From an uncultured Thermomicrobium sp. (lineage in GTDB: Bacteria > Chloroflexota > Chloroflexia > Thermomicrobiales > Thermomicrobiaceae), in the NCBI GenBank assembly GCA_938028665.1, contig CALIMB010000068.1:1-32882 (forward strand): a stretch of DNA of 32,882 nt, read 5' to 3'. The position numbers and the translations under genes are program-made. The stretch's first letter is position 1. Each line of letters starts with the position of its first letter. Under the pieces are notes generated by a model. It saw only the letters and a program-made list of their open reading frames with translations, was not told where the DNA came from and ran no database searches. Below are positions 6,762-14,142 of this stretch, one piece after another.

Positions 6762-7933
6762 ACAGTTGTGACCTCTGATGGACAGTGAACCAAGTAGCTT
6801 CCTGTGATTCTTCAAGAAGGCCTTCAAGGCCTTATTCATGCCACTATTCCAATCAAATCCAGACTCAATGGAGCGGCATCGTTCTTGTGCCCTTTGGCTC
6901 CTACCTTGGCATTGTGGGTCGCCTTTAGCTCTGTGCCCCTTGATCAGTTTGACTGTTGATCACGATCACCTACTACGAATGAGGGCCATTTCCGCGGCCA
7001 TGGTACCCATGGTCTGCAGCGAGAGACACCAGAGTTCACAATGCCCAGGGCGAGCTGCGCCTCGTCTTCTTCGGTTTGGTCTACTCACATTTCTCGGCGC
7101 TATGATGCTCATCTTAGGCGTTGTTCGGCCATGATCGAACGCTGCTTTCTCTGTCCAGTCTTGTCCTCCTGAGCTGGTGTTGCCCCCAGTAGGGGGATCT
7201 TCTGGCATTGGCAGATAGAAGCGGAAAGCGGTGTACAGCATCTTCAGCGGCCAGTACGCAACGCATGGTGGCTAGACGTTACCGCTCGCTGGCGTCGAGT
7301 TGGGCCCACACGGCGAAGTGCTCGCGTCGAAGTTCAATCGTCGGATGCAGCGTCCGCCGGTACACACCAAGGAAGTAGGCTGTCAGGCTACTGGTTGGCA
7401 TCACAGTGATCCCGATTAGATAGGAAGCGCAGCTCCCAATTGGACCGCACCGCTCTAAGGCGCAACATCGCCCTAGCCATCAGTTGTGGCCGTGACCATT
7501 GCCTACCTCAACGCATCACTGTCGCTCCAGGCATCTCGTGCGACAAACCAAAAGACGATATTCCCACGTGACAATATCGACTGCTCCTACTCAGGACCTC
7601 ACTCAGCCCGTTCTGGCGAGCGTTTGTCTGGGGCTCGCGTCCTGCCTGCCGGAGCTAGACACTGACGCGCAGCCTGCGGAGCAGATGGACCAGACGCAGT
7701 AGCCGTGCTATCCCCAGAATGTCCCGGGCATGATGGCAACAAGCTTGAACCCATGCTCCCACACAACGTGGCGTCAATCTATTGCATGGATCAGCGGACC
7801 ACGGAGTCGACAGCACAGATACCTCCTACTGCCAGAACTCGCGAGCTCTGTCTCCAGTAACGACGCGAGGGGCAACAGCTAGACTGTAGCGAGAGCGCGT
7901 GCAGCCTTCACCGACACGGAAAACCTCTTCTGG
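6762..7933. other. Gene-poor stretch of about 1.2 kb with possible gene remnants
   Basis: No intact gene is recognisable. Around 6870-7134 on the plus strand, short hydrophobic runs appear in different frames (for example VLVPFGSYLGIVG, LRLVFFGLVYSHF and LTFLGAMMLILGVV). This is what a frameshifted membrane-protein gene would look like. A minus-strand fragment at 7279-7401 is listed separately. No clear rho-independent terminator was found after dnaE2. Confidence 0.35.
7279..7401 (-). pseudogene. Possible C-terminal fragment of a membrane protein
   Basis: Read on the minus strand, this gives about 40 residues. A hydrophobic, coding-like stretch (SSLTAYFLGVYRR) is followed by a polar tail ending FAVWAQLDASER and a stop. 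The frame stays open upstream to about 7460 with another apolar stretch (ASYLIGITV) but has no good start or ribosome binding site. Composition resembles the last membrane helix and cytoplasmic tail of an integral membrane protein. I cannot name the family. It may be a remnant left by gene decay. Confidence 0.25.
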
Positions 7934-8287
7934 GTTCTCAGTTGTCATAGCTGCATTTGAGACGGTGCACGGCGATCAGGTGACGATCGCCGATCCTGGT
8001 TCTCAGTTGTCATAGCTGCCTTTGAGGCGCGATCAGGATGATCAATGCAACCAGCGTGAGCGAGTTCTCACTTGTCATGGCAGCATTTGAGACCGCGAGC
8101 AAGGTGCTCCTCGAGGCTGGCCTCAAGGCGTTCTCAGTTTTCATGGCTGCATTGAGACGGTTCGCTCCTCTTTCGCTGCACCATCTGACATGGTTCTCAG
8201 TTGTCATGGCTGGATTGAGACCGCGGAGATACCGCTCGCTCAGGCGCTAGCTCTCGAGTTCTCATTTGTCGTGGCTGTATTGGGATC
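7934..8287 (+). CRISPR. Degenerate orphan CRISPR-like array, six repeats and five spacers
   Basis: Six 29-30 bp repeats begin GTTCTCA and end TTGAGAC or a variant: 7934-7963, 7999-8028, 8064-8093, 8130-8158, 8193-8221 and 8258-8287. The five intervening sequences are 35, 35, 36, 34 and 36 bp and unrelated to each other. Repeats 4 and 5 end ATTGAGAC, close to the ATTGAAAC 3' end that forms the crRNA handle in many type I and III systems. This suggests plus-strand transcription, with any leader upstream of 7934. No two repeats are identical: the first three carry an extra T, and the last is the most diverged. No cas gene is in the window. I read it as a decaying array; another spaced repeat of about 65 bp period cannot be excluded. 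Confidence 0.62.
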
Positions 8288-8528
8288 TTACTTCTCCGTC
8301 TTGTTCCGACGAGTATCGCGGATCACCGATGCCGTTGCTCCTTCTCTGCATTCATGAAGCCCGTACCCAACTGCGCACCGCAGTATTGGTACACACCCCT
8401 TTTGGACTTAGTCCCAACGTTTACTCCTTGTTCCAACGGCGAGAGGCGCAACCCCTACCGGGACATGATCGGCTGCTGACCGCAGCGTAACACCACACGC
8501 GAGCGCGATATGCTGGCGGAAAATAATC

Positions 8529-8557
8529 TTGATATCTTCATGAGTACATGATAAAAT
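8529..8557 (+). promoter_or_regulatory. Promoter of the Rrf2-hemerythrin operon with an internal palindrome
   Basis: The -35 TTGATA (8529-8534) and -10 TAAAAT (8552-8557) are separated by 17 bp and each differ from consensus by one base. A TG two bases before the -10 makes an extended -10. The spacer holds an inverted repeat TCATG-AGTA-CATGA (8538-8551), well placed for an operator, most simply for the Rrf2 regulator encoded just downstream. The untranslated leader would be only about 15 nt, enough for the AAAGGAG ribosome binding site. Confidence 0.6.
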
Positions 8558-8579
8558 TCCACCTAGAAAGGAGCTCAAG

Positions 8580-9080
8580 GTGCTCTCGCAGACAAGCCGC
8601 TATGCCTTGACCGCTGCACTCGCTCTCGCCCAGCGCCCTGATCGCTGGGTGCGGGCACAGGATCTCGCTGTGGAAACGGGTATCCCGGCGAATTACCTCA
8701 CGAAGATCCTGCACACAATGGCACGGGCACGCCTTCTCCGGTCCCAACGTGGCCGTCAGGGTGGCTTTCGCCTCGCTCGGCGGCCGGAAGCAATTTCCCT
8801 GCTCGAAGTCGTCTCGCTCTTTGAGGAGCCTCACTTTTTGAGTTACTGCCTCCTGGGTACTGAGAGTTGCCCGGCAGATCGTCCGTGTCTGGCCCATCAG
8901 CGCTGGCTCGCCGCAGTGGAGGCGATTGCTCGGTTTCTTCATGACACCAGTCTGGCCGACATCGCCACCACGCCTGATGGGAGTCCCGTCGGTCCCCTCA
9001 CAGTTCAGTGGTCGGAGAGCGCATCACGAACGTCTGTGGGTTTTGCGGAACAGGAGGAATCCTATGGGTCTCAGCGCTGA
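8580..9080 (+). CDS. Rrf2-family transcriptional regulator with Fe-S cysteines
   Basis: The 166-residue protein has the Rrf2 winged-helix domain: an N-terminal SRYALTAALALA helix, a recognition region around residues 26-50 and the wing GRQGGFRLAR. Three cysteines, Cys90, Cys97 and Cys103 (spacing CX6CX5C), match the [2Fe-2S] or [4Fe-4S] ligand cluster of IscR/NsrR-type members. Such proteins sense nitric oxide, redox state or iron-sulphur supply. The start is GTG 8580, with AAAGGAG at 8567-8573. It is the first gene of an operon with a hemerythrin/DUF2249 protein and an NnrS-like protein, which favours an NO or nitrite sensor role. The palindrome in its own promoter suggests autoregulation. 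The family is certain; the NsrR-like role is inferred. Confidence 0.87.
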   Translation: MLSQTSRYALTAALALAQRPDRWVRAQDLAVETGIPANYLTKILHTMARARLLRSQRGRQGGFRLARRPEAISLLEVVSLFEEPHFLSYCLLGTESCPADRPCLAHQRWLAAVEAIARFLHDTSLADIATTPDGSPVGPLTVQWSESASRTSVGFAEQEESYGSQR

Positions 9081-9702
9081 AGAGATTCGACAACATCATC
9101 GGGCACTCTACGAGCATCTCATTGCACTCGTGCCCGAAGACGACGCGGTGTCTAATCCTGAAGGGCTAGTGCGCTTCCTTCGTGAGGAGCTGTTGCCGCA
9201 TGCACAGGAGGAGGAGCGGGAGCTCTACGATAGGATCGAGTCCCACATCCCGCCTGGAGAAGTGACCCGGACCATGCGTCTCGACCACGAGGCGATTGTC
9301 TGGTACACCGAAGAGCTCGCTCGGCTGGCCGCGACCCTCCCGTCTGCCGAGGGGGACGAGCGCGTACAACAGACTCGGCGGTTTGTGCGCCGGGCCCAGG
9401 AACTTGCGGCGATCGTCCGTCTGCATCTCGAGAAAGAAGAGCGGGCTTACTTGCCAGTCTATGAGCAGCTCACTCGAGAACGTGTTCTCGATGTCCGTAC
9501 AGTTCCACCCTCACAGCGTCATTCCTTGATCTTCCAGACCTTCGAGTCGCTTCCTCTCGGAGAAGCGTTTATCTTGGTCAATGACCATGATCCAAAGCCG
9601 CTGTACTACCAGTTCCAGGCAGAACGCGCTGGCACCTTCAGTTGGGACTACGTGGAATCCGGCCCTGAGGTGTGGCGTGTTCGGATTGGAAAGGTCGGCT
9701 AG
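9064..9702 (+). CDS. Hemerythrin-like domain fused to DUF2249
   Basis: The protein has 212 residues. An N-terminal four-helix hemerythrin-type domain carries the expected metal ligands (His11/His12, His46 and nearby Glu, His75, His121 with Glu125 in HLEKEE). A C-terminal DUF2249 domain (about 143-210) starts DVRTVPPSQRH and contains the typical FILVNDHDPKPLYYQF segment. Hemerythrin domains bind a di-iron centre; this fusion is often found near NO- or nitrite-responsive genes and may bind O2 or NO. ATG 9064 has AGGAGG (9052-9057) and overlaps the end of the Rrf2 gene by 17 nt, implying coupled translation. An in-frame upstream ATG at 8926 lies deep inside the Rrf2 gene and is unlikely. Confidence 0.88.
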   Translation: MGLSAEEIRQHHRALYEHLIALVPEDDAVSNPEGLVRFLREELLPHAQEEERELYDRIESHIPPGEVTRTMRLDHEAIVWYTEELARLAATLPSAEGDERVQQTRRFVRRAQELAAIVRLHLEKEERAYLPVYEQLTRERVLDVRTVPPSQRHSLIFQTFESLPLGEAFILVNDHDPKPLYYQFQAERAGTFSWDYVESGPEVWRVRIGKVG

Positions 9703-9724
9703 GCCTCGTCTTCAGGAGGTGAGG

Positions 9725-10915
9725 ATGGTCTCGGGCACGCCGCAGCGCCTTCCGCGGTGGATTCCACGACTCATCATGGCTGCCGGCGCACTGCTCGCAG
9801 CAGCTGGTGTGCTCGCTGGTCTTGCTCGTATGGATTGGCACATCCCCGTTCCGCACCGCGTCCAGCTCACCGTCGAACATGGCCCGCTCCTGGTCGTTGG
9901 CTTCTTCCTGACGCTGATCGGCCTGGAGCGGGCCGTCGCGGTGGGCCGACGTTTTATGCTGCTCGGGCCCTTAGCGGCTCTTGCCAGTACAGCCGGTCTG
10001 ATCGTTGCTGCACCCCCACTCATCGTTAAGGGTTTGTTGTTGTTAGCCTACCTTGGTTTTGCCGCTACTTTCGGCTATCTCCTGTGGATAGCGCGTACAG
10101 CGCACCACATGGTGATGTTTGGTGGTGCACTCAGCTGGCTGACTAGCGGCGTTCTCTGGGCAATGGGATTCTCCTTGCCAACCATAGTTCCATGGTGGAT
10201 ATCCGGCTTCGTTCTTATCATCACTGGTGAACGACTAGAACTGGCGCGAGTCCTTCGGCCTGGTCGAACCACCCGTTTCTGGTTCTTTACGGCGATACTG
10301 CTGTTGCTGGTCGCCACCGCCGTCGAGCTCGTGTTTTCCGACGTGGGAGCTCGGCTTCGCGGGTTCGCCCTGCTGCTGCTCGCTGCCTGGCTCCTGCGTT
10401 TTGATGTGGCTTGGCGTGGACTGCGTCAGCATGGAGTGCACCGTTATAGTGCTGTCTGTCTGCTGCACGGTTATGCTTGGCTTGTCGTAGGCGGGCTGCT
10501 TGCGCTGGTCTTTGGGCACCAGCGAGGTGGCTTCCTCTACGATGCCCACATTCATGCTGTTCTGCTCGGTTTCGTTTTCTCCCAGGTCTTCGCGCATGCG
10601 CCGATCATCGTCCCTGCTGTTGCTGGTGTGCGTCTTGTGTTCGTGCGGTTTACCTATGCAGTCCCGCTTGCTCTTGGCCTTTCGCTTGCGGTACGACTCG
10701 CAGGTGATCTACTTACTGATTCGGAACTGCGTCGAATCGGTGGACTTGGTAACGCGCTTGCTCTCGCCCTCTTCGCTGTCGCGACTGTTTTCTCTGCCTT
10801 CCAGGCGCGTCGCAGTGCCTCCCCTCATCGCTCCATCTCGGCTAGACTGGCTCCGCAGTTGCCTCGAGCGGGTGGCGAGCGAGGGGAGAACGATAATGCA
10901 GGTCTGTCTCGGTGA
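9725..10915 (+). CDS. NnrS-like polytopic membrane protein
   Basis: The product has about 396 residues with some ten to twelve hydrophobic segments. Conserved-looking histidines lie at membrane edges (VEHGPLL, TAHHMVMFGG, YDAHIHAVLLGF, VFAHAPIIVP). This arrangement resembles the NnrS family of haem- and copper-containing membrane proteins linked to nitric oxide stress. The context fits: it follows the Rrf2 and hemerythrin genes by 22 nt with AGGAGG at 9714-9719. The similarity is by eye; a more distant uncharacterised membrane family is possible. It overlaps the next gene by 20 nt. Confidence 0.6.
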   Translation: MVSGTPQRLPRWIPRLIMAAGALLAAAGVLAGLARMDWHIPVPHRVQLTVEHGPLLVVGFFLTLIGLERAVAVGRRFMLLGPLAALASTAGLIVAAPPLIVKGLLLLAYLGFAATFGYLLWIARTAHHMVMFGGALSWLTSGVLWAMGFSLPTIVPWWISGFVLIITGERLELARVLRPGRTTRFWFFTAILLLLVATAVELVFSDVGARLRGFALLLLAAWLLRFDVAWRGLRQHGVHRYSAVCLLHGYAWLVVGGLLALVFGHQRGGFLYDAHIHAVLLGFVFSQVFAHAPIIVPAVAGVRLVFVRFTYAVPLALGLSLAVRLAGDLLTDSELRRIGGLGNALALALFAVATVFSAFQARRSASPHRSISARLAPQLPRAGGERGENDNAGLSR

Positions 10916-11540
10916 CCAGGTATGGACGAACGATGCCCATAAGGCAGGGACAGTCGAGTGGATGCTGCTGGATCCAACGGCACAACGTGTGAATGCCGTG
11001 GTTATCCGGCGAGGACTCATTCTCAGGCACAGCCTCGTTGTCCCACTGACAGAACTACAGGTTGTAGAGATGGACGAGCAGGAGGAGCGGCTCGTTATTC
11101 GCCGCTCGCGTGCCGAGCTTGATCTACTGCCGGAGTTCCGGCGGGAGCTCTTTACTGGCGCATTGGCGTGGCAGCTTACGGGTGAGCGGGCTACTCCTTT
11201 CTTTCTTCCCGGTTGGCTGCCGCCGGTCACTCCGCAGCAACCTCCACCCTCGACGGAAGTCGTTGAGCTTGGCGAGCTGGTGCGCACGATCGACCAGGCA
11301 AATGCGGTCTTGCATCGCGGTGCAGCAATTGTGGCTGCCGATGGGCAGCGGATCGGCCACCTACAGCAACTCTGTGCGGAGCTGCCGGGCGGCCAGGTCA
11401 TCCGCGTGACAGCACGACCCGGCCTGTCCCTGCAGGAGATCGAAATCCCGGTGGGGGCTCTTAGCGGGGCCGATGACGGCCTGCTCTTTCTGCGTTGGTG
11501 GCGCCAGGACTTTGAGCAGGCGATGCGCTCTGCTCGATGA
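10896..11540 (+). CDS. PRC-barrel-like protein, two tandem domains
   Basis: This 214-residue soluble protein has two similar beta-rich halves. The first half (about 1-70) reads GDQVWTNDAHKAGTVEWMLLD and VVPLTELQVVEMDE. The second (about 120-205) reads AAIVAADGQRIGHLQQL and IEIPVGALSGADDG. This resembles duplicated PRC-barrel domains, which mediate protein contacts or bind RNA or surfaces. A hydrophobic, Pro-rich linker joins them. ATG 10896 has GAGGGGAG (10881-10888) and starts inside the 3' end of the NnrS-like gene (20-nt overlap), while its stop overlaps a possible ATG of the next gene. The frame stays open upstream to 10500, but only as a shadow of the previous gene. Confidence 0.65.
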   Translation: MQVCLGDQVWTNDAHKAGTVEWMLLDPTAQRVNAVVIRRGLILRHSLVVPLTELQVVEMDEQEERLVIRRSRAELDLLPEFRRELFTGALAWQLTGERATPFFLPGWLPPVTPQQPPPSTEVVELGELVRTIDQANAVLHRGAAIVAADGQRIGHLQQLCAELPGGQVIRVTARPGLSLQEIEIPVGALSGADDGLLFLRWWRQDFEQAMRSAR

Positions 11541-11584
11541 CTGCCACGGTGGCGATTCGGTCTGAGGAGGGAAGGTTGAACCGC

Positions 11585-12547
11585 ATGAGTTGTCAGGAGG
11601 TCCGAGGGATTGTTGTCGGGAGCCGCAACGCTGCGGTTGGTTTCCCGGCGGCGATCGAGATCCTTCGCGCTGGTGGTTCCGCCGTTGACGCGGCAATCGC
11701 CGCGGTCAAAGCGGTCGAGGATGATCTCCGTGATCAGGGTGTAGGAACTGGTGGCATTCCAAATCTCCTTGGAGAGGTTGAGCTTGATGCCAGCATCATG
11801 GATGGGCGCACACTTGCCGCTGGAGCTGTAGGCGCTGTCAAGCACTATCCTCACCCGATCGAGATCGCGCGCCGCGTGATGGAGGACACGCCGCATGTGC
11901 TCTTGGTCGGGGAAGGGGCTGAGCTCTTTGCACGCCTGCACGGGTTTACACCAGCAAACTTGCTTACGCCGGAAGCGGAAGCGATCTGGCGGGCGGTCAT
12001 CCGTGGCGAACGCGTGCCTCAGCAGAACGTCTACGAAGACCGGTACCAGCTCTATATGGAGGTCGTCCGCCGCTGGACGGAGCTTTTGCGCCGTGAACTC
12101 TTCGGAACGACCAACGTCATTGTTCGTGATCTGCAGGGGAGCATCGCTTGTGCTGTCTCCACAAGCGGGTGGGGCTTCAAGTGGCCTGGGCGGCTGGGTG
12201 ACTCGCCCATTATCGGAGCGGGGAACTACGCCGACAATCGCTACGGTGCAGCTGCTTGTACCGGACGTGGCGAAATGGCCATCCGCTGTGTGACGGCTCA
12301 CAGTGTGGTGATGTACCTACGCTTCGGTCTGCCGCTCGAGGAAGCACTCCGGCAAGCCATGCATGATCTCCGATACCTTGATGATCCATTTGCTGAGGCC
12401 GAGACAGTCATGAACATCGTCGCCATGGATCGAACTGGCAATGTCGCAGCTGCTTCGACCTCGCCTGATGCCACATACATTGTGCAGACCATCGATATGG
12501 AGACCTTTGAGGAACGCCCCCGTCTGTTTGTTCCACTCCGTGAGTAA
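11585..12547 (+). CDS. Ntn-hydrolase of the isoaspartyl peptidase / glycosylasparaginase family
   Basis: The protein (about 320 residues) is a self-cleaving N-terminal-nucleophile amidohydrolase acting on asparagine side-chain amides or isoaspartyl peptides. Family landmarks are GGSAVDAAIAAVKAVED near the N-terminus, the cleavage site FG/TTN with Thr175 as predicted nucleophile, Thr193, the loop PGRLGDSPIIGAGNYADN with Arg203 and Asp206, and TGRGE (226-230). The usual HDT-x-G motif around the nucleophile is changed to FGTTN. Three starts are possible: ATG 11537 (overlapping the previous stop), TTG 11576 (AGGAGG at 11565-11570) and ATG 11585 (GAAGG at 11571-11575). The last was chosen because the family fold begins just after it. 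It is the last gene of the Rrf2-hemerythrin-NnrS run. A link to nitrogen-oxide stress is not obvious. Confidence 0.85.
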   Translation: MSCQEVRGIVVGSRNAAVGFPAAIEILRAGGSAVDAAIAAVKAVEDDLRDQGVGTGGIPNLLGEVELDASIMDGRTLAAGAVGAVKHYPHPIEIARRVMEDTPHVLLVGEGAELFARLHGFTPANLLTPEAEAIWRAVIRGERVPQQNVYEDRYQLYMEVVRRWTELLRRELFGTTNVIVRDLQGSIACAVSTSGWGFKWPGRLGDSPIIGAGNYADNRYGAAACTGRGEMAIRCVTAHSVVMYLRFGLPLEEALRQAMHDLRYLDDPFAEAETVMNIVAMDRTGNVAAASTSPDATYIVQTIDMETFEERPRLFVPLRE

Positions 12548-12669
12548 GCGCGCTCTGACCTGTCTATGACCAGTACTGGAGCACTGTGTAGTCGTAACGG
12601 TGCTCCTTTGGTGAGGGTACCTCTCGGGGCAGTGTTCTCGAGAGTGTCTGAGGACGAGAAAGAGGCAAT

Positions 12670-14142
12670 ATGACACAGAGACTCGCCATTCGTACCCAGG
12701 ACGGAAAACGGCGTGACCTTCAGCCTGAACACGTCGATCATCTCCGCGCCGCGCTGAGCGGTGCGCTCTTGAATCGGAGCTGAAGCGATTATGGTCAGGC
12801 GCGCCGGATCTGGAACAGTCGGATCGACCGAGATCCCGCGCTGATCGCACGTTGGGCAAGGACGGAAGATGCGCAACGCGTTGTCACCGTTGCCCAGGGG
12901 CAAGAGGCTATTCGTGCAGTGCATGGCGGTGAGCACAGTTTGCTCGGGTACTCTACCTTTGACGCGGGCATCGTGTTGGACCTCTCGCTAGTGCGGAGTG
13001 TGCGTGCGGCTTCGCCCAAGAGGACAGCACAGCCGCAAGCAGGCCTTTGTTGGGGTGAGCTCGATGCAGTTACGGAGCAACACAGGCTGGCGCTCACTGG
13101 CGGTCAGGTCTCACACACTGGAATTGCTGCCCTCACACTGCGCGCTGGTATAGGCTGGCCAGCGCGGCAATTTGACCTCATGACTGATCATCTCCAGGCC
13201 GTCGCCTGATTGTCGATACTGTGGAACACACGAAATTTGACCTCATGACTGATCATCTCCAGGGCGGCTGATGTTCTGACGGCTGACGGTCAACTGCACC
13301 GTGCTGCCTAAGATGCGGATACCGACATTTTTGGGGCAGTTAGGGGCGGCGGGAGAAACTTTGACGTGGTTACGATGTTCGACTACAAGCTCGATCCGCT
13401 GGAGGCTTCAATCACCGTGCTTGCAGGAGCCTTTCCTATTCACAACGCAGCCAATGGATTCCCCGTAAGGGAGACACGAGTTGCGACGGCGCCCGATTCG
13501 GTCTCTGGAACCGTTGTCTTTCTGCGGACGCCAGAAGGCTTTCCACCCGCTGCCTTGACACTCATCGTAACGGACCCGTCGAACGATGCGGTGCGACTCC
13601 GTGAGCCGGTTTTCGCCGTCTCGGTCAAGCGATCTTCGGAGCAATTATCCACTCACCCTACACCTCGCTGCAGTGTATGCTTGATGAGATTGTTACAGTA
13701 TGATTCCGTTACTATGCTCGGAGTAACTGCTTCATGAGCGTAATGCCAGAGGTCGTTAGGCTACTGACTACCCATCACGGGACAGCGCCTTTACCCTCAA
13801 GTGTCGTTCTCTTTGTGCGACTTGGTGGGGCCGTGGCCGGTGTTCCACCGGAGGAGACCGCATTTGGGCACCTCTCTTTTTTTCGTGGTCTTTCACTGCG
13901 CTGGGGATCTAGTGAGATCCAGGAACAGATGAGGCAAATCGTAACCGGATTGAACGGACGTAGAGTCGCTGACCGGCTCTTCCTTCAGCCGTGCACGTCA
14001 ACGAGCTTGATGAGGAGGGATCGGTAAGTGTCCGTGCCGCCTATGGTGGGAATTCCATACGGCTTGCCACTCTCAAAAAGCGTACGATCCCAATAACTTT
14101 TTTGTCGTGACCAGAATGTCCTCCTTCCTTGAGACTGTTTGA
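12670..14142 (+). pseudogene. Wrecked FAD-linked oxidase (berberine-bridge-type) gene
   Basis: The whole gene can be followed in pieces. It runs from ATG 12670 through LRAALSGALLNRS-stop and a frame change to ARRIWNSRIDRDPALIARW. Next are the FAD-binding part (AVHGGEHSLLGYSTFDAGIVLDLS, WGELDA, GGQVSHTGIAALTL), then DVLTADGQLHRAA-stop, AVRGGGRNFDVVTMFDYKLDPL, LGGAVAGVPPEETAFGH and a BBE-like end (ELDEEGSVSVRAAYGG, YDPNNFF). At least two in-frame stops and several frameshifts separate these. A 30-bp direct repeat interrupts the FAD domain. The intact family uses covalently bound FAD to oxidise alcohols, sugars or alkaloids. The product cannot be functional unless the assembled sequence is wrong. 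Confidence 0.88.
13169..13263 (+). repeat. Perfect 30-bp direct repeat inside the oxidase pseudogene
   Basis: Positions 13169-13198 and 13234-13263 are identical over 30 bp (start AATTTGACC, end CTCCAGG) with 35 bp between. The repeat encodes the FDLMTDHLQ part of the FAD domain. The extra 65 bp is not a multiple of three, so it breaks the frame. It looks like a local duplication or template-switch scar, and one of the events that killed the gene. Confidence 0.85.

Follow-up and report, generated by a model that had tools for sequence, protein, structure and literature searches.

A predicted nitric oxide/nitrite response operon with a divergent NnrS-type protein, next to a PRC-barrel and hydrolase gene pair in an uncultured Thermomicrobium

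Five plus-strand genes follow one another at positions 8580–12547 of a 32,882-nucleotide (nt) stretch of DNA from an uncultured Thermomicrobium sp. (assembly GCA_938028665.1, contig CALIMB010000068.1), hereafter the window. They encode, in order, an Rrf2-family regulator, a hemerythrin-DUF2249 fusion, an NnrS-like membrane protein, a PRC-barrel protein, and an Ntn hydrolase (Table 1). Reading the sequence confirmed the five genes, places, and order given in an earlier sequence-only reading, which had treated them as one overlapping stress operon. Its three junctions were exact: the Rrf2 gene overlaps the hemerythrin-DUF2249 gene by 17 nt, a gap of 22 nt precedes the NnrS-like gene, and the latter overlaps the PRC gene by 20 nt. 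That last overlap was found in 5/6 loci of the genus, with sizes of 20–47 nt. Open reading frames (ORFs) at the compared loci were picked by homology and not by a codon-model gene caller. Since the gene order recurs in relatives, the tight packing is not a product of chance.

A fourth junction, a possible 4-nt overlap of the hydrolase with the PRC gene, did not hold up. There is an ATG at 11537 in the window, and a hydrolase starting there would overlap the PRC stop codon by 4 nt. In the four genus genomes on which the comparison rests (G119, G123, G120, and G121, leaving out G124), the hydrolase starts at the ATG equivalent to window position 11585, which follows a purine-rich stretch resembling a ribosome-binding site; at the position of the supposed overlap, G119 and G121 lack an ATG. 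Start-stop coupling of the two genes was rejected because the upstream start was not conserved. From this alignment the hydrolase probably starts at 11585 and not 11537, which leaves a gap of +44 nt in the window and +24 to +61 nt in the four relatives.

Table 1 Features of the five-gene stretch in window coordinates.
Feature	Position	Strand	Evidence
Predicted sigma-70 promoter, TTGATA-17-TAAAAT	8529..8557	+	Promoter scan
Palindrome, consensus CATATNNTCATGANNATATG, candidate Rrf2 operator	8531..8550	.	Conserved upstream of Rrf2 genes
Rrf2-family regulator, 166 amino acids (aa), GTG start	8580..9080	+	Pfam, NCBIfam, alignment
Hemerythrin (HHE)-DUF2249 fusion, 212 aa	9064..9702	+	Pfam, alignment
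NnrS-related 12-helix membrane protein, 396 aa	9725..10915	+	Profile alignment, structure model
TAGACT, -10-like element, candidate separate start for PRC and hydrolase genes	10843..10848	+	Conservation in genus
PRC-barrel protein, 214 aa, two barrels in model	10896..11540	+	Pfam, structure model
Ntn hydrolase, glycosylasparaginase/isoaspartyl peptidase type, 320 aa	11585..12547	+	Pfam, alignment

NnrS-like protein. The window protein had no Pfam or NCBIfam match, none of 20 family members matched the NnrS model PF05940 at E 0.1, and the family had no COX1 Pfam match. Its kinship emerged from profile comparison. A profile of 22 relatives aligned with a profile of 11 NnrS proteins from the phylum at 96.2 % in hhalign over 307 columns, rising to 96.8 % once the members from C. 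necator and P. fungorum joined the profile, while five control families gave ≤0.5 %. At profile level, then, the protein is a relative of NnrS and belongs to the NnrS superfamily. The structure model, with a predicted local distance difference test score of 85.9, had the 12-helix fold of haem-copper oxidase subunit I. It superposed on cbb3 oxidase with Z 29.6 and a root-mean-square deviation of 3.6 over 352 residues, and on cNOR with Z 27.8; Foldseek E-values were weaker (best 2.6e-03). The sequence profile missed the COX1 proteins of the family (hhalign 0.1 %), so the relation to oxidases is one of predicted structure only. Catalytic haem-copper oxidases follow a six-histidine pattern that serves two haems and CuB. 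The NnrS-like family departs from it, with His52, His277, and His291 (helices 2, 10, and 10 by the model) as its only invariant histidines (24/24), and the CuB ligands appear to be missing. Among the literature titles listed for NnrS none concerned its fold, and a search for DUF2249 together with NnrS returned nothing.

Rrf2 and hemerythrin-DUF2249 proteins. The regulator matched PF02082 at 1.1e-31 (110.2 bits vs a cut-off of 30), and C90, C97, and C103 (CX6CX5C), its candidate iron-sulfur (Fe-S) ligands, were kept in 9/9 aligned orthologues. It fell far under every NCBIfam equivalog cut-off (IscR, SUF-regulator, RirA, and NsrR), with IscR and SUF-regulator outscoring NsrR (35.4 bits vs a cut-off of 182). 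The fusion protein matched DUF2249 (5.4e-31) and Hemerythrin (2e-11, 44.9 bits vs 25.3) in Pfam and kept His and Glu residues that fit a hemerythrin di-iron site in 9/9 aligned orthologues. It scored far below the RIC and DnrN equivalog models (13.4 vs 204.7 and 13.2 vs 300 bits, respectively).

Promoter and palindrome. Only one plus-strand promoter-like match occurred in 8300–12900, that upstream of the Rrf2 gene, with 10/12 positions and a 17-nt spacer; the scan gave 2 matches over both strands, and shuffles averaged 1.1. A palindrome with the consensus CATATNNTCATGANNATATG lies mostly inside the -35/-10 spacer. Its best match starts 42–51 nt upstream of the start codon in 9/9 Rrf2 genes, with 1–5 mismatches, the weakest sites being those at locus L061 (5 mismatches; equalled by 3 % of shuffles) and loci L059 and L065 (4 mismatches; 0.5 %). 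Because the consensus was drawn by eye from the nine upstream regions on which it was later scored, the shuffle values are partly circular, and the whole-genome search is the cleaner test. At ≤2 mismatches that search returned a single site for the own genome and none for the other 6 genomes of the genus; of the sites that those genomes have, the ones measured (L058, L059, and L061) carry 3–5 mismatches. A single site would fit an Rrf2 protein that regulates itself and has one local target.

Distribution of the first three genes. The NnrS-like gene was present in 24/158 genomes of the class, 11 of them in the family. Rrf2 and hemerythrin-DUF2249 genes stood directly before it in nine of those 11; of the two exceptions, the G120 contig starts inside the second gene and G121 lost the block by deletion. 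The three genes form a recognizable unit, which we call unit A, with the PRC and hydrolase genes as unit B. Near the NnrS-like genes of the 13 genomes outside the family, where some contigs are short, no Rrf2 gene was detectable; a DUF2249 gene adjoined in three (G052, G025, and G028). A hemerythrin-DUF2249 search returned 30 phylum loci, three of which were the genus itself. When the other 27 were re-scanned, four held an NnrS-like gene, one (L038) being the G052 locus again.

Neighbors outside the family pointed to denitrification. A cupredoxin/Cu-oxidase gene, like Cu nitrite reductase as read from its domain order, adjoined the NnrS-like gene at L071 and L073, and another so identified by clustering lay ~3 kb away at L079; other neighbors were COX1-like, protoglobin-ThiS, and DUF2249 genes. 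On C. necator pHG1 an NnrS-like relative sat beside Rrf2, DUF2249, and hemerythrin genes with a NO reductase gene ~5 kb off. A P. fungorum plasmid (L187 1381–7619) carried two sets side by side: a canonical Rrf2-NnrS-hemerythrin-DUF2249 set and a metal-sulfur factor-DUF2249-NnrS-like set that comes with a hemerythrin gene. The proposal that the first three genes fit nitric oxide (NO) or nitrite defense gains support from these nitrite reductase-like, NO reductase, and DUF2249 neighbors of relatives together with the NnrS kinship.

Two further observations concern these families. A protoglobin with a ThiS-type domain lies near the NnrS-like gene of G028 (L070 5964–6845), and the same cluster occurs in G025. 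The own genome has a separate weak PF05940 match (G000:C86:2682-3110, L165) that scores 26.6 bits, short of the cut-off, and contains one TGA; the genus relatives G119, G121, and G123 have PF05940 matches over the cut-off.

Unit B proteins. The PRC protein matched its Pfam model over the cut-off (3e-08). Top Foldseek matches of its model were the archaeal PRC-barrel proteins CdpB1/CdpB2, which we read as a shared fold only. Orthologues at ≥60 % identity occurred in 6/7 genus genomes, and the search of other class genomes gave none; T. roseum also has one (61 %). The hydrolase matched Asparaginase_2 (2.4e-70, 237.6 bits) and glycosylasparaginases were the structures to which it aligned best. 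Thr175 falls at the position of the nucleophile, matching the Thr that opens mature beta chains; the alignment search also matched isoaspartyl peptidase/L-asparaginase entries. The hydrolase was far more widespread than the NnrS-like gene, in 122/158 class genomes and 18/21 family genomes, including genomes of groups g2, g3, and g4 where the search found no NnrS-like gene. Genomes of g5, g6, and g4 had the hydrolase without the PRC gene and kept the window's downstream neighbors where the stretch reaches, namely an FAD oxidase gene in g5 and VIT1-family and hydantoinase-type genes in all three. In the window itself the FAD-binding oxidoreductase (FAD_binding_4/BBE, 12919–14027) is broken into three ORFs; it is intact in relatives (L058 10890–12284; T. 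roseum L184 11085–12479).

Gene order in relatives. The five-gene order was conserved within the genus (window, G119, G123, and G124, and G120 from the contig edge) and not outside it, where the check on order that the sequence-only reading had suggested speaks against one operon. Two relatives kept unit B where unit A was gone from the locus. T. roseum DSM 5159 had potassium channel, PRC, hydrolase, FAD oxidase, and VIT1 genes in that order, and tblastn with the unit A proteins on the locus stretch gave chance-level matches only (best E 0.16, inside a polymerase gene). This absence refers to the locus; beyond it, the plasmid record alone was searched. A literature search for T. roseum together with hemerythrin returned nothing. 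Because T. roseum groups with G123 and G120 in the hydrolase tree (support 0.988), the absence of unit A at its locus is probably due to loss; the concatenated tree leaves the placement of T. roseum open. Relative to G119, G121 lacks 2.8 kb: a deletion took the promoter, the Rrf2 and HHE genes, and most of the NnrS-like gene, fusing the channel gene to the last NnrS-like codons and leaving PRC and hydrolase intact. The dN/dS values between G121 and G119 were 0.105 for PRC and 0.086 for the hydrolase, and say little because these two close genomes may have diverged in part before the deletion. We rejected the idea that the NnrS-like protein has PRC as an obligate partner, as PRC was kept at both reduced loci.

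Upstream of the five genes, a minus-strand potassium-channel gene occupied the place of window ~6800–7700 in G119 (as two ORFs), G123, G124, and T. roseum, and no such ORF was found there in the window. Window 7933–8288 holds six degenerate, CRISPR-like and decaying 32-nt direct repeats (69–100 % to the first copy, spacing 63–66); at ≤3 mismatches the repeat had no match outside this region of the own genome, and none in G119 or G121.

Transcription of unit B. In the window, the last NnrS-like codons contain a TAGACT element 47 nt before the PRC ATG; the element was identical in 6/6 genus genomes at about the same distance. Its counterpart in T. roseum is TAGAAT, closer to the PRC ATG and non-coding there. 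The consensus promoter scan did not call the element in the window, G121, or T. roseum. A separate promoter for the hydrolase, which would have spoken against one operon, thus found a conserved -10-like element upstream of PRC in its favor and no call by the scan; we treat the element as a lead, not proof, that unit B may have its own start. Terminator-like sites were not clearly above background (7 found vs a shuffle mean of 4.2, sd 2.1).

We consider it probable that the stretch is two units that are neighbors by history: a self-regulated NO/nitrite response operon (8580–10915) and a PRC-hydrolase pair (10896–12547). Relatives keep the pair without unit A, so the five genes probably do not make up one stress pathway, and the suggestion that operons had been joined by position gains support from the same fact. 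We propose that an Fe-S Rrf2 repressor sits on the palindrome between the -35 and -10 elements of its own promoter. NO or nitrite would damage the cluster and Rrf2 would release the palindrome, turning on the hemerythrin-DUF2249 protein (putatively di-iron, with a likely role in NO/nitrite handling or Fe-S repair) and the NnrS-type membrane protein (putatively haem-binding). Unit B, a pair of this genus made up of PRC and a glycosylasparaginase-type hydrolase, may keep its own upstream element and may receive read-through from unit A without a functional part in it. More tentatively, the NnrS-like protein could found an undescribed family of oxidase-fold membrane proteins without CuB histidines, with three invariant histidines, in Thermomicrobia and proteobacteria, serving with hemerythrin/DUF2249 partners as a sink or relay for NO (or nitrite) and controlled by an Rrf2 protein with its own operator type.

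Several results weigh against the two-unit reading or its NO signal. The genes are tightly packed within the genus, and the neighborhood of unit A and the hydrolase is older than the genus, the two being adjacent in G125 and separated by 6.5 kb on a single G116 contig. The G121/G119 dN/dS comparison informs little, as noted. Co-transcription of both units is likely in the window's species, because the consensus scan finds no plus-strand promoter before PRC or the hydrolase; it finds none on the coding strand of the G121 stretch and none in T. roseum either. The NO signal is read from gene neighbors only, no Cu nitrite reductase in the own genome passes the NCBIfam cut-off, and the palindrome is unlike the published NsrR consensus.

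That all five genes form one stress operon, with PRC and hydrolase acting alongside the NO module, for example in isoaspartyl repair, would agree with the order kept in the genus, the short gaps, and the single strong promoter in the window. We regard it as very unlikely, given the pair retained in T. roseum and G121, the hydrolases of g2, g3, and g4, and a PRC orthologue confined to this genus; the hydrolase's far wider distribution likewise argues against asparaginyl repair under the same stress. Read-through is another matter and is compatible with two units: whether the unit A promoter partly drives unit B in the five-gene species, making it NO-inducible without a role in NO defense, seems to us an even call, favored by the NnrS-like/PRC overlap and the unremarkable terminator count, while TAGACT/TAGAAT upstream of PRC in 7/7 suggests that unit B may keep its own start. 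It is unlikely, in our judgment, that Rrf2 senses Fe-S, iron, or redox status and not NO, with unit A protecting iron metabolism generally. The equivalog scores and the non-NsrR palindrome speak for such a sensor; the NnrS kinship and the denitrification neighbors of the NnrS-like family speak against it, and the iron-type VIT1 neighbor is part of the hydrolase backbone and not of unit A.

On the two-unit reading, the first three genes make up a NO/nitrite operon of a known kind whose NnrS-type member is divergent, and the gene pair after them is separate. Only within the genus are all five linked, and there read-through co-transcription is likely and shared function is not. Gene packing alone would have suggested a link between NO defense and a protein-repair hydrolase, and our results argue against such a functional link, with T. 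roseum DSM 5159 as a natural control that has the pair and no unit A at this locus. A protein family without a Pfam model also gains a testable place in NO metabolism through its NnrS kinship, oxidase fold, and recurring partners across phyla.

The hydrolase resembles bacterial glycosylasparaginase (AGA; PDB 1p4k, 9gaf) in its Asparaginase_2 family, aligned nucleophile Thr, and GDSPIIGAG and TGxGE motifs, its substrate class being predicted from the alignment alone. The NnrS-like family shares with NnrS (PF05940) the histidines aligned by profile in the HGP/HGH and HA..GFV motifs, and differs in its third invariant histidine (291) and in escaping the Pfam model. For unit A, the closest known systems lie in NO-responsive regulons and denitrification. 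We take COG4309 to be the DUF2249 family. The NsrR regulon, as described in PMC1274295, joins Rrf2-type NsrR with nnrS, hemerythrin-like dnrN/ytfE, and COG4309, the last being linked to NO reductase genes. Unit A resembles it in that an Rrf2 regulator adjoins NnrS-type, hemerythrin, and DUF2249 genes. It differs in the operator, CATATNNTCATGANNATATG here and, compared by eye, gATGyAT-N5-ATrCATc in the consensus printed there, as well as in the fusion of hemerythrin with DUF2249, the divergent NnrS protein, and the single operator found in its own genome. DUF2249 proteins of Thermus (DrpA/DrpB) and haloarchaea are tied to nitrate respiration and denitrification in PMC6282519 and PMC11218638, which mention a combination with the hemerythrin domain; unlike those proteins as described there, DUF2249 in unit A is fused to hemerythrin and stands beside an Rrf2 regulator.

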